DNA from: a virus
Virus record (IMG/VR): IMGVR_UViG_3300017987_000261
Span: 1 to 30,553 of that record
DNA: 30,553 nt
Direction: 5' to 3' (one strand)
Shown: positions 2,274-23,378 of the stretch, piece after piece
Layout: each line of letters opens with the position of its first letter
Position numbering within the stretch: the stretch's first letter is position 1
The notes under the pieces: model-generated
The model's input: only the letters and a program-made list of their open reading frames with translations
What the model was told of the DNA's origin: nothing
The model's database searches: none
Position numbers and translations under genes: made by a program

Positions 2274-3055
2274 TCAGCGGAACTATTGAACGGCCTTTGT
2301 GTCCAAATTGTGGTCATAAGTTGAGTTGTAGACTATTTCAAAGAGATTACGAGTGTGATCTTTGTGGGAAGAATTTTCCACGGGAAGAATTATCAAACAA
2401 CACTCCACAACAAGCAAAAGACACTGGAATGATGCGTTGCCCTTGGTGCGATCACACAATGGACAAATACTCCATCCAATGGAAATCCCCAGAGCAATGC
2501 GTGTGCCCAAGATGTAGATTGGATTTTGATTCTGAGGATGGAATCAAGTTGCACAAGTACAGCGGGGGAGTCACCGAGCCCAAACCAACACCGCCCCCAC
2601 CGGCACCAGATTATTCAAAAGGTTTTGTGCTATCCCATGAGAGTTTGGTGCCTAAGGAAATGTCGGATCTTTTGGATATGTGCGCAAAACACCTTGAGAG
2701 ATACGCGGAACCCGTAATCTTCAAACCGAACGAGATCATGGTTGATGCCGTCGGTGATGCCAACGTTTCAATACTTCCCGACCGCTGCAAATGGCACAAA
2801 AGGGTTCCTATCAAAATCGGTGGGGAGTTCGTGACGTACAATTCCTATTGCAAGGCTCACGCTAAATCAAGCGAAATGAAGGCGTTTGTTTCTTGGTACG
2901 ACGAAAAAATAGAGAAAGCCAAAGCTCAAGCTATCCGCTCAATCCTTTGGGGAGTGCGAGAAGTGCCTTGCTGCCCAATGACTGACAGACCCGTATCAAT
3001 CGTTTTCCACGACAACACTGCATTTTGGTTGTGTGAGGTGTGTGGAAATGTTTGA
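2270..3055 (+). CDS. Multi-zinc-ribbon protein of unknown function
   Basis: This 261-aa protein has at least two clear zinc ribbons at the N-terminus: C11-x2-C14 with C29-x2-C32, and C57-x2-C60 with C79-x2-C82. A proline-rich hinge follows (about residues 105-113). The C-terminal domain ends with a further cysteine set (CCPM ... LCEVCGN) that could bind another metal. No catalytic motif is evident. Such proteins in phage early operons may bind DNA or RNA polymerase, but function is not shown here. ATG 2270 overlaps the preceding stop (ATGA). The 3' end overlaps the nuclease gene by 8 bp, so the two are likely made together. Confidence 0.8.
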   Translation: MISGTIERPLCPNCGHKLSCRLFQRDYECDLCGKNFPREELSNNTPQQAKDTGMMRCPWCDHTMDKYSIQWKSPEQCVCPRCRLDFDSEDGIKLHKYSGGVTEPKPTPPPPAPDYSKGFVLSHESLVPKEMSDLLDMCAKHLERYAEPVIFKPNEIMVDAVGDANVSILPDRCKWHKRVPIKIGGEFVTYNSYCKAHAKSSEMKAFVSWYDEKIEKAKAQAIRSILWGVREVPCCPMTDRPVSIVFHDNTAFWLCEVCGNV

Positions 3056-3992
3056 AGCTGTCCAAGCCCTAGCCGAAAGAATTACTGAGGCTCAAAAGGC
3101 AAAACTCAAAGAGAGGGCTCAAAGAGTCTACGCTCCAAGATCAACCAACGTCTCAGCTATCGGCTACCGTTGTGAAAGGCGTACAGTCTATGCGCGGACA
3201 CGTCCGGAGATGGCGGACCCTATCGGGGAAGATTTAGCGAGTATCTTCCAAGAAGGAGATCTCCACCATTCTGACGTTAGGCGCAAACTGAGTGAGCTTG
3301 GGTTTGAGGTATTGGAGGCTGAGCGGTCTTTCCGTGATTCTTCAATTGATGTGTCAGGTAAGATTGATGGGAAGCTTTCTGTTGATGAATCAGATCACCG
3401 GGCTGAAAGGGTGCCAACCGAAATCAAGAGCATTTCGGGCAATCCTCCAGAAGATCAATACGCAATGAAGCATGGGCCTGAATTATATCGAAGGTACTAC
3501 GATAGTTTTCAGCTCTACTTGTTCCTGACTGACTCGCCATATGGGCTTTTCATTTTCAAAAACAAAATCACAGGCAAGCTAACACCTGTCCCGGTTGAGC
3601 TTGACTATGCACATGCAGAAGAGCTCTTGAAGAAAGCCGAAAGAATCAAAGCACACGTTGAGGCTGGAACGTTGCCTGAAAGGTTGGCCGATCGATCGGA
3701 ATGCAAGGCGTGTCCATTTCGTGACTCTGTTTGTCTTCCAGCTGAAGAGCCCATTGATCCCCTGTTTTTGGTTGAGGATGCAAAGCTTCTCGAGGAATTG
3801 GAGGAGCATGAGAGGTTAGATCCAAAGCGTAGGAGATGGAAACAACTCGATGATTCAATCAAAGAGAGATTCCTAAATACGAAAGGGGACAGATTCGTTG
3901 CTGGCGGTAACGGTGAGTTTCTGATTACAAAAAAGAAACATGGCAACGGACAACGGATCGTTGTTGAGAGGTTGACCAACCCGACAAATTGA
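3048..3992 (+). CDS. Cas4/RecB-like PD-(D/E)XK nuclease with a four-cysteine cluster
   Basis: This 314-aa protein carries the PD-(D/E)XK core: His73/His74 after a helix, Asp107 in GKIDGKL, Glu125 and Lys127 in PTEIKSI, and Gln155 in the YDSFQLYLFL helix. One cysteine (C42, in GYRCERRTVYAR) and a trio C219-x2-C222-x6-C229 (ECKACPFRDSVC) have the spacing of the [4Fe-4S] cluster in Cas4 and AddB-type nucleases. The expected role is a 5' or 3' exonuclease resecting DNA ends for recombination. ATG 3048 is chosen over an upstream start at 3033 because GAGG lies 9 nt before it and it overlaps the previous stop by 8 bp. The annealing-protein candidate at 4680 was probably its direct neighbour before the HNH insertion. 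Iron-sulfur binding is inferred, not shown. Confidence 0.82.
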   Translation: MFEAVQALAERITEAQKAKLKERAQRVYAPRSTNVSAIGYRCERRTVYARTRPEMADPIGEDLASIFQEGDLHHSDVRRKLSELGFEVLEAERSFRDSSIDVSGKIDGKLSVDESDHRAERVPTEIKSISGNPPEDQYAMKHGPELYRRYYDSFQLYLFLTDSPYGLFIFKNKITGKLTPVPVELDYAHAEELLKKAERIKAHVEAGTLPERLADRSECKACPFRDSVCLPAEEPIDPLFLVEDAKLLEELEEHERLDPKRRRWKQLDDSIKERFLNTKGDRFVAGGNGEFLITKKKHGNGQRIVVERLTNPTN

Positions 3993-4009
3993 GTTACCAA
4001 CAAGGAAAT

Positions 4010-4096
4010 GACCCCTGCGAAACACACAAACATATATTGGTCCGGTCGGTTGCTGGCGTAACTCTCGCAGGGGTCTACGTCGGCGCTGGCCGGACC
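4010..4096 (+). ncRNA. Candidate structured RNA: long hairpin whose loop pairs with upstream sequence
   Basis: GACCCCTGCGA (4010-4020) is the exact complement of 4065-4075. That second segment lies in the 15-nt apical loop of a long hairpin formed by 4039-4050 with 4085-4096 and 4052-4060 with 4076-4084 (21 pairs, some G-U, one bulged U at 4051). The order is therefore A-B-C-A'-C'-B', a pseudoknot with an 18-nt A-rich linker (4021-4038). It fills the 116-bp gap between the nuclease stop and the HNH start. I do not recognise a known riboswitch or ribozyme. A DNA-level function remains possible. Confidence 0.45.
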
Positions 4097-4108
4097 TGTG
4101 AGTTAGCT

Positions 4109-4665
4109 ATGAAAAAATGTATGCGGTATGCCTCATGGCCTGTTCCTAAATTGACTGAAAAAGATGCGGAGCGTTTTTGGCCCAAAGTCAACAAAACTGG
4201 AGATTGTTGGATTTGGACAGCATCAAAAAGAATTCATGGTTATGGTCAATTCGGTGTTGGGGGTACGGGTGGCAGACCAATAGCCGCCCACCGAGTTGCT
4301 TGGATGCTTGCAACGGGCCGCACACAACCCAGAGGGAAAATTATCATGCACTTATGCAACAACCCTGCTTGCGTCAATCCGGCACATTTGAAACTTGGAA
4401 CACAAAAAGAGAATATGCAGCATTGCAAAAAATCCGGAAGAGTCAGAAACGGTGTCAGATTTGGCGAAGATAACCATGCATCCGTACTGACTAAAAACAA
4501 GCAGACTGGATTAGAAAACAGCCAAGGGGAGTGCGTGGGCAAACCAAAGCATTGGCTAAAAAGTTTGGTGTTCACCCATGCACAATTCAAAGAGTCCAAA
4601 AAGGTACAACTTGGAGTAACCGCAAACGCCGGGCGGACCTTCCGGCGTGCTCTGCTCGAGCTTAG
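4109..4665 (+). pseudogene. HNH homing endonuclease disrupted by a one-base deletion
   Basis: From ATG 4109 the product shows the HNH_3-type homing endonuclease pattern: GDCWIWTASK, YGQFG, AHRVAWML, IIMHLCNNPACVNPAHL and KLGTQKENMQHC. After ASVLTKN the frame is lost. Reading in the -1 frame from the five-A run at 4493-4497 gives KQADWIRKQP, then a helix-turn-helix-like tail ALAKKFGVHPCTIQRVQKG, ending at TAG 4663-4665. Restoring one A gives a single continuous protein of about 186 aa. The uncorrected frame runs on to 4897 over the next gene and is not believable. The -1 frame has a TAA at 4492-4494 and the site is not a canonical slippery heptamer, so a mutation or sequencing error is more likely than programmed frameshifting. 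It sits as an insertion between recombination genes. Confidence 0.8.
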
Positions 4666-4679
4666 AGCTAGGAGACATC

Positions 4680-5540
4680 ATGTCAGAGAAAGAAGCAAAA
4701 CCAGTAGAGACGAAAGAAATTGCAACATTGGATGTGAGAGACGCAAGCGATCATGCAGTCGCTTTGATGCGCAAGCGGGTCGAAAATCAGGAGGAGATGC
4801 TCAAGATTGCAATCAAGCTCACCGGCCAACATCAATGGGTGATGTTTGGCGAGTCGTTGTACCCCACAGGGGGTTGTGCCGACACAATCCTGCGTAGGGC
4901 TTTTGGGCTTCACTGGGGAGAGAAAACCATCACGATCGAAGATACCCCGGACGGCAAACTTGCGACTTGCACAGCATGGCTGATGCAGGACGGTAGAAAG
5001 GTGGAAGCCTTCACGGGGTATCGGTTAATGACGGGCTTCATCAAAAATGAAGCTGATTTGAGGCGGGCTGTACTGGAAAACCTAAAAAGCGTTGCAGTGA
5101 GGGATCTCCTTGGTTTGCGATTCCGCACCCCAGAAGAGCTGAAACATTTAGGTCTTGACGTAACCAAACTTGAAAAACGTGTTGACTTTCAAGAGCACGA
5201 CAAACAAGGCAGTGAAGTGATCGCTCCCTTCGGAAAACAGAAAGGCAAACCACTCTCAGAGCTCAATGACGAAAACCTGCAATGGTTGGCGGAAGCTGTG
5301 AAAAAGAGTGTTGAGGATCCAACCAAGGAAAAGTGGAAAGCAAAGAATCAAGCCTTGGTTGAGGCGTGCCGCGAAGAATACAAAAGAAGGAGGGTTTCCA
5401 AGGAGGAAGAGAAAAAGGAAGCCAAAGAGGATGGGCCTCCCCCACCGGTTGATCCGGAGACAGGCGAAGTAATCAAAGATGAGCAGGATTTCGGACCAAA
5501 GGCTTGGGATGAGAAGAGCAAGGAGGAGCCCGGACTATGA
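4680..5540 (+). CDS. Putative single-strand annealing / recombination protein
   Basis: This 286-aa protein has ATG 4680 after a clear AGGAG at 4670-4674. The core (about residues 55-155) contains GESLYPTGGCADTILRRAFG, an alternating strand region, and ENLKSVAVRDLLGLRFRTPE. That layout is seen in phage proteins encoded between a RecB/Cas4-like exonuclease and a DUF1351-type protein. Residues about 180-235 (IAPFGKQKGKPLSELNDENLQWL) match a small module found at the ends of exonucleases and recombination proteins. The C-terminus is a charged, proline-rich tail. The single-strand annealing assignment rests on context and weak pattern similarity. It could instead be another recombination mediator. 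It overlaps the next gene by 4 bp (ATGA). Confidence 0.5.
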   Translation: MSEKEAKPVETKEIATLDVRDASDHAVALMRKRVENQEEMLKIAIKLTGQHQWVMFGESLYPTGGCADTILRRAFGLHWGEKTITIEDTPDGKLATCTAWLMQDGRKVEAFTGYRLMTGFIKNEADLRRAVLENLKSVAVRDLLGLRFRTPEELKHLGLDVTKLEKRVDFQEHDKQGSEVIAPFGKQKGKPLSELNDENLQWLAEAVKKSVEDPTKEKWKAKNQALVEACREEYKRRRVSKEEEKKEAKEDGPPPPVDPETGEVIKDEQDFGPKAWDEKSKEEPGL

Positions 5541-8412: not shown

Positions 8413-8772
8413 CCACCCGGGGGAGTCCGCCTCCCTCTCGGCTAAAAACTTGGCTTCGGTGACTGCCAGCCTACCCTGACAATCAGACTCCACAACCTCC
8501 CGCTGTTTGTTCATCTGCAGTTGTGTGAGATCTGGCAACGCATACAGGAGCCTAAGACGCCTTAAAACCTCCAAATCGAGTGGATAGGGCAAATATGTTC
8601 CCTTTCCGTCATCTCTGGCATCCGGCAACCCATCGGGCAAAGGAGCGATTTTGGGAGCTGTCATGAGGTCCGGAATTGTAACCAGATCTTCAGCTTCCCC
8701 CATCGTTGAGGTAGTCAGCAAGACTACCAGAATCATGCTTGATATCATTAGAGGTTTCTTTCGCTGCCCCAT
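8326..8772 (-). CDS. Membrane-spanning lysis-region protein (spanin-like topology, no lipobox)
   Basis: This 148-aa protein has a hydrophobic N-terminus (residues 9-24, MISSMILVVLLTTSTM, a probable signal peptide cut near GEA-ED). A proline-rich then charged helical middle (LEVLRRLRLLYALPD, QLQMNKQREVVESD) follows. The C-terminus has a glycine-rich transmembrane helix (LEVIGAVAIGVAAGIGIG). Signal plus C-terminal anchor is the topology of unimolecular spanins, but the lipobox cysteine is absent. ATG 8772 has GGAAG 7 nt upstream and lies inside the previous gene (83-bp overlap), an arrangement reminiscent of nested Rz/Rz1. It ends the leftward late operon, converging with the early operon. The lysis role is inferred from topology and position. 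Confidence 0.65.
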   Translation of the reverse strand: MGQRKKPLMISSMILVVLLTTSTMGEAEDLVTIPDLMTAPKIAPLPDGLPDARDDGKGTYLPYPLDLEVLRRLRLLYALPDLTQLQMNKQREVVESDCQGRLAVTEAKFLAEREADSPGWSTLEVIGAVAIGVAAGIGIGVGFHALAE

Positions 8773-8962
8773 TTAAGGCTTCCGAGGCGTTTTCGCGAGC
8801 TGCTCGACTCGTTTCCCGGCTGTTGCTCTCAACCGTCTCCAGGTGCCTTAATGCTAGCTCCTGGTGTCGTTTTCGACGTTGCCTAGAGTCCCACCAATTC
8901 CACACAAGGAGACACCCCAACCCACAAGCAACCACCGTGGCAATTACACCCCACCAATTCAT
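8690..8962 (-). CDS. Small N-terminally anchored protein (inner-membrane spanin candidate)
   Basis: This 90-aa protein has a transmembrane helix at residues 4-24 (WGVIATVVACGLGCLLVWNWW), then a basic stop-transfer region (RQRRKRHQ) and a polar helical tail (HLETVESNSRETSRAARENA). N-terminal anchor plus extended helix is the layout of Rz-type i-spanins, though basic residues right after the helix would favour a cytoplasmic tail. It overlaps the upstream gene by 4 bp (ATGA) and the downstream gene by 83 bp in another frame. The call is by topology and place after the endolysin. Confidence 0.6.
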   Translation of the reverse strand: MNWWGVIATVVACGLGCLLVWNWWDSRQRRKRHQELALRHLETVESNSRETSRAARENASEALNGAAKETSNDIKHDSGSLADYLNDGGS

Positions 8963-23349: not shown

Positions 23350-23378
23350 GGCTCCCTCCGCAGAGCACGGAGGGAGCC
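23350..23378 (-). terminator. Strong hairpin after the capsid gene (attenuator or mRNA-stabilising)
   Basis: GGCTCCCTCCG (23350-23360) is the exact complement of CGGAGGGAGCC (23368-23378): an 11-bp stem with a 7-nt loop, between the capsid stop and the next gene. On the transcribed strand it is followed by CTTGGGGCTTGG, not a U-run. It therefore may lower downstream expression or protect capsid mRNA rather than terminate fully. Confidence 0.6.

Follow-up and report, generated by a model that had tools for sequence, protein, structure and literature searches.

A hairpin with a complementary loop partner before a phage HNH gene: most likely a variant of homing-endonuclease leader control

The expression of free-standing homing endonucleases must spare the phage operon that houses them, and control by a hairpin at the ribosome-binding site (RBS) is so far represented by a handful of T4-type examples. 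The locus described here raises the question of what a long hairpin, whose apical loop is complementary to a segment lying upstream of it, does in the leader of such a gene. The window, by which we mean the whole stretch of DNA analysed, covers 30.5 kb of an IMG/VR virus record and belongs to a tailed phage; portal and replication genes are among those it carries. The features that matter for the question are the following.

3033..3992, + strand: Cas4-domain (RecB-like) exonuclease gene (phrog_1990, E 3.2e-22), with the stop codon TGA at 3990-3992
3990..3996, + strand: first copy of the direct repeat TGAGTTA, overlapping the exonuclease stop codon
4010..4020, + strand: segment A, GACCCCTGCGA, perfect complement of A′ (A:A′ RNA duplex, -22.3 kcal/mol)
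4021..4038, + strand: linker of 18 nt, AACACACAAACATATATT, A/C/T-rich, with only few bases paired in the fold of 3990-4110
4039..4060, + strand: hairpin arm B, from the minimum free energy (MFE) fold
4061..4064, + strand: loop bases ACTC outside A′, which together with 4059-4060 are complementary to GAGTTA at 4100-4105
4065..4075, + strand: segment A′, TCGCAGGGGTC, within the apical loop, perfect complement of A
4076..4096, + strand: hairpin arm B′, from the MFE fold
4097..4108, + strand: spacer of 12 nt between the hairpin base and the HNH start, with a weak Shine-Dalgarno-like GAG at 4100-4102
4099..4105, + strand: second copy of TGAGTTA, between the hairpin base and the HNH start
4109..4504, + strand: free-standing HNH homing-endonuclease gene (PF13392, E 2.6e-13; PF05551, E 2.1e-8)
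4549..4665, + strand: C-terminal part of the HNH protein, beginning ALAKKFGVHPCTIQRVQKGTTWSN, helix-turn-helix-like as read from its sequence, in another frame, with its stop codon at 4663-4665
4680..5540, + strand: next gene, downstream of the HNH gene, with a good Shine-Dalgarno (TAGGAG)

The exonuclease is 33% identical to the Cas4-like protein of MW202801 over its length, the two being alike in length and C-terminus, and the gene looks complete and uninterrupted. Its stop codon is separated from the HNH start by 116 bases, and the structure fills this gap. Near its end the exonuclease gene carries an in-frame slippery heptamer, A AAA AAG, at 3929-3935; a -1 frameshift fusion of the exonuclease and the HNH protein was rejected, since the -1 frame after this heptamer stops at 3965, before the HNH gene. 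The open part of the HNH gene encodes 132 amino acids, and an A-run near 4494-4497 is where the frame is lost; the 38-amino-acid C-terminal part in the other frame has no Pfam match. This break is either a real change or an error of the assembly or record, so that, unless the record itself is wrong, the gene behind the leader may be one that is being lost. The downstream gene has weak PHROG matches, all to proteins of unknown function. Two further very stable, near-perfect intergenic hairpins without T-runs lie in the window, at 2016-2066 and 23350-23378, one between divergent gene groups and the other adjoining a capsid gene.

The geometry given by the original prediction holds in most respects. 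Segment A is the exact reverse complement of A′ over 11 nt, and the 21-pair hairpin lies at 4039-4096 as described, its arms (4039-4060 and 4076-4096) leaving one bulged T. The order of the elements had been given as A-B-C-A′-C′-B′, and is corrected here to A-B-A′-B′, that is, a simple interleaved pseudoknot. The apical loop is of 15 nt, ACTC followed by TCGCAGGGGTC, A′ thus occupying its 3′ end. When folded without a pseudoknot, the MFE structure contains a small extra stem inside this loop; with the loop forced open, the stem still amounts to -34.9 kcal/mol. Because 4075 and 4076 are adjacent, with no spacer nucleotide between A′ and B′, full A:A′ pairing needs a kissing-like arrangement through the 4-nt ACTC and the 18-nt linker. 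Judging from these complementarities, both helices (A:A′ and B:B′) would coexist as a pseudoknot.

Such an arrangement had been called very unlikely by chance, and the figures bear this out. The MFE of the hairpin is -40.9 kcal/mol, where its shuffles average -22.2 (z -6.4), and none of 200 shuffles was as good. Taking the hairpin as given, we drew random 80-nt pieces from the same window, and none of about 398,000 complemented the loop over at least 9 nt, where the real flank does so over 11. Furthermore, a combined score for a hairpin plus loop partner reaches 35 for the element and 27 for the runner-up in the window, while the best of 39 related HNH leaders scores 24 and the best of 200 shuffled leaders 23. 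The z score, the random-piece sampling and the rank in the scan together indicate that neither the hairpin nor its loop partner is a chance match.

What, then, is the structure for? Among the functions that the original prediction had listed, translational control fares best, and on balance we favour a cis-acting mRNA leader that limits translation of an HNH gene co-transcribed with the exonuclease gene. The HNH gene would be transcribed together with the exonuclease gene upstream; read-through is likely, as a scan for sigma-70-like promoters, whose model may not fit the host, found none on the + strand of the gap between them. The absence of a recognisable promoter in the gap fits the T4 endonucleases, among which promoter-less cassettes are common (PMC2988022).

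At the start codon itself, the geometry is suggestive. The base of the hairpin lies 12 bases before the HNH start codon, in a stretch that the 30S subunit covers, so initiation is expected to be weak, as the GC-rich base must melt. Opening the region from -20 to +19 of the HNH start costs 22.7 kcal/mol, as compared to 8.7-21.9 at six other + strand starts of the same phage, a cost which alone is no mark of repression since the exonuclease start is nearly equal (21.9). The 11-nt A:A′ pairing, 18-28 nt past the exonuclease stop, would lock the loop and brace the hairpin, in an H-type or a kissing-like form, and ribosomes terminating on the exonuclease gene would leave it undisturbed, A being beyond their footprint. 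The loop bases left unused, ACUC, could also pair with GAGU of the HNH ribosome-binding region. The Shine-Dalgarno is not clearly sequestered by the structure: it lies outside the stem, and only 4-6 bp are possible between the RBS region and the loop (-2.1 to -4.3 kcal/mol). The expected outcome is an endonuclease kept back during expression of the early/recombination operon. That transcripts run through the leader, that the structure represses, and that repression may be relieved are here deduced from the layout of the locus.

Could the structure instead serve the mRNA upstream of it, with no specific role for the HNH gene? It would then shield the exonuclease mRNA at its 3′ end, or act as a point of processing or of Rho-type termination. 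It does start 18 nt past the exonuclease stop, and the two intergenic hairpins of this phage mentioned above (2016-2066 and 23350-23378) are likewise very strong and lack T-runs. However, the stem is not followed by a T-run (which is why an intrinsic terminator was rejected), the terminator scan reports nothing at this place, and a simple 3′ stabiliser needs no 11-nt loop partner. Moreover, HNH leaders are in general more structured than other leaders. Unlikely as we hold this explanation to be, it is the one that weighs most after translational control.

The last point comes from a comparison of 33 HNH_3 leaders with 549 other leaders of the same loci. Their mean z is -1.05 versus -0.26 (Mann-Whitney p 0.004), and 30% of the HNH_3 leaders fall below z -2, as against 8% of the others. 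Once the window and one duplicate are taken out, 26% of the HNH_3 leaders are still below this value (p 0.003); the excess is indicative, start codons having been assigned by a rule of thumb. Individual leaders are of interest in this respect. In one relative (locus L047), a 10-bp GC hairpin at 8603-8632 carries a loop, ACTCCTTTT, which is the exact 9-nt complement of the Shine-Dalgarno AAAAGGAGT of an HNH gene starting at 8652, and on these sequences the leader is likely an RBS-sequestering pseudoknot. Two other loci (L018 and L029) hold three HNH leaders with a GC hairpin at the same place. Two of the three are identical (L018 and L029 7560-7660), and between L018 and the - strand leader of L029 the hairpin, some 25-30 nt before the start, shows a compensating change (GAAG/CTTC to GGAG/CTCC).

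Covariation was found in a leader of actinophages and actinobacteria (loci L009, L010, L081-L091 and L094-L119; alignments A4 and A5, models R1 and R2). In actinophages, 13 aligned leaders carry two hairpins in a row, a GC hairpin and, after it, a smaller one around the Shine-Dalgarno, and 10 of the 16 pairs are changed on both sides. The first hairpin of the actinobacterial leader bears a conserved GCGA and the second ends at the start codon; by covariance model the motif is present in 14 of 198 actinobacterial genomes, before genes of the HNH_3, GIY-YIG (T5orf172/MUG113), HTH_17 and other types. When 41 sequences are taken together, 14 of the 16 pairs show double changes and no shuffle attains the score, in an alignment that was fitted to the model. 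No Rfam family matched this leader. The window was considered as a further member, in an alignment using A as helix 1 that places the start codon, and rejected: it scores 1.7 bits with R1 and 7.7 bits with R2, the latter being chance level window-wide (four other places score better; E 1.2).

The stem also bears on whether the structure acts as RNA or as DNA. On the + strand, five of its 21 pairs are G-U and the other 16 Watson-Crick; the - strand would have A-C mismatches at those five. Had random transitions struck an inverted repeat that was once perfect, the chance of every non-Watson-Crick position falling on the G-U side would be about 1/32. Both flanking genes are on the + strand, and the stem thus favours, with modest support, an RNA read toward the HNH gene. 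The same pairs speak against an element acting as DNA, in which the interleaved inverted repeats would be an operator or binding site of the HNH protein, or the scar of an insertion with TGAGTTA as its target-site duplication. This 7-bp sequence is indeed present on both sides of the structure, at 3990 and 4099, and I-TevI is an autorepressor whose operator lies in front of its own gene (PMC2988022). Nevertheless, a 7-nt repeat at such a spacing is not rare, and neither terminal inverted repeats nor an empty site could be found, so we regard a DNA-level role as distinctly improbable.

The loop has other complements as well. In addition to A (4010-4020) and the RBS region (4100-4105), it has a third partner over the exonuclease stop, GAGTTAC at 3991-3997, complementary to 4058-4064 over 7 nt and an alternative to the RBS region. 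It is conceivable, at rather long odds, that the loop is the hub of a switch by which the HNH protein is made only when translation of the exonuclease stops: ribosomes finishing the exonuclease would cover 3991-3997 and drive the loop into pairing with the RBS of the HNH gene. If this were true, the pseudoknot would couple a selfish gene to its host operon. The 6-nt loop:RBS and 7-nt loop:stop-region complements, which we count in favour of translational control, have a joint chance of about 4e-4 in random draws, for a pair picked post hoc.

A coding function for the leader appears very improbable. In this case the HNH frame would start upstream, e.g. at TTG 3989, which overlaps the stop codon of the exonuclease gene, giving a longer HNH protein; this frame is open across 3968-4109 (ORF 3989-4897), but open stretches of 40 codons are not rare, and the matches of the best relatives, obtained with the protein starting at ATG 4109 as query, begin around residue 8-33.

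The original prediction had further suggested a new RNA class. The exact A...A′ pattern was found at no place in IMG/VR, and shortened patterns hit 13 places, none of which is the element. A search by leader DNA similarity among 50,697 phages and 72,556 plasmids gave chance matches only and no second copy, in collections from which records very near the window may be missing. An Rfam scan of the element likewise revealed no family at the gathering threshold or at E<=5, one chance match aside. No relatives were found by way of the neighbouring genes; two phages related by their major capsid protein (L078 and L079) gave a borderline exonuclease-like match only, and no counterpart of the downstream gene. 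Identity to the nearest HNH relatives is about 35-52%, and in the comparison of homologous leaders that had been put forward as a refuting test, those of 39 HNH_3 relatives (best segments at most 52% identity) are without the structure. Over this distance the outcome speaks against a conserved RNA class, and no relative near enough for a fair test of covariation was found. As these 39 leaders do not share it and no second copy is available for covariation, a new RNA class is not supported. In the course of this search, long interleaved inverted repeats of 12 bp and 15 bp (one G-T), by sequence a strong pseudoknot, were seen at 8767-8851 of another locus (L075), within the leader of a gene that starts at 8745 on the minus strand and in a gene context unrelated to that of the window.

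The least probable reading is a new HNH-associated functional RNA (a guide, a ribozyme or a recoding signal) working with or through the HNH protein: a strong pseudoknot does adjoin the HNH gene, and in T4, mobA and the 50 nt of gene 60 that are bypassed illustrate how HNH genes may be tied to odd RNA (PMC5009743; PMC3014915), but Rfam is blank even at E 5 save for the chance match, the scans gave no second copy, and Pfam finds in the small protein HNH_3 and zf-His_Me_endon (zinc-loop) domains only, without IscB-like ones. Bypassing is not needed either, as the exonuclease looks complete and no gene is split, and a group I intron with an HNH ORF was rejected (Rfam at E<=5 shows no intron in 3900-4750, exonuclease uninterrupted). 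Of the interpretation initially proposed we retain that the structure which fills the leader of this free-standing HNH_3 gene (PF13392, E 2.6e-13) is non-random and probably acts at the RNA level, and find no support for its HEARO-like, guide and ribozyme variants.

How does the element compare with known systems? With HEARO, the omega RNA of IscB, it shares a structured RNA adjoining an HNH-containing gene; it has neither the Rfam match (gathering, E<=5) nor a protein with the split RuvC plus HNH of IscB. The autoregulatory pseudoknot of T4 gene 32 is also a phage leader pseudoknot before a start codon (PMC3014915); however, it is bound by gp32, has small helices and lies about 67 nt upstream, whereas the helices of the element are of about 11 and 21 bp and have no known ligand. 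The actinobacterial leader resembles the element in preceding HNH_3 genes (also GIY-YIG), in its GC-rich helix and in its structure at the RBS, and its 5′ strand, GACCCCSGCGA, recalls segment A, but it is made of nested hairpins where the element would be a pseudoknot.

The T-even phages offer the nearest parallels. Repression by RNA structure is described there for I-TevI and Aeh1 mobE, and a part for it is implicated in the case of segB, I-TevII and I-TevIII (PMC2988022; PMC3014915), the hairpins of I-TevI, segB and Aeh1 mobE being of a kind that sequesters the RBS. All of these share a stable structure directly before the endonuclease start, in a gene lying inside another operon, and the element too is a stable structure directly before a homing-endonuclease start, like those of I-TevI and mobE. 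The T-even hairpins have the RBS within the hairpin and, at its 5′ side, a late promoter giving transcripts without the 5′ arm; in the element the RBS falls just beyond the stem, with 4-6 bp to the loop possible, the sigma-70-like scan recognised no late promoter of this kind, and the 11-nt loop partner is extra. Closest by position is the leader of seg43(25) of Aeromonas phage 25, where the base of a very stable hairpin is immediately 5′ of an RBS that it does not sequester (PMC2988022). It belongs to a GIY-YIG gene, and the passage on it describes no pseudoknot, while the element precedes an HNH_3 gene and has its long loop partner. Together with the leader of L047 and that of the actinophages, the element suggests that structured leaders have come to accompany homing-endonuclease genes repeatedly and by independent evolution. 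In conclusion, the element is most likely a very elaborate variant of the known leader control of homing endonucleases, which likely keeps the output of the HNH gene low.
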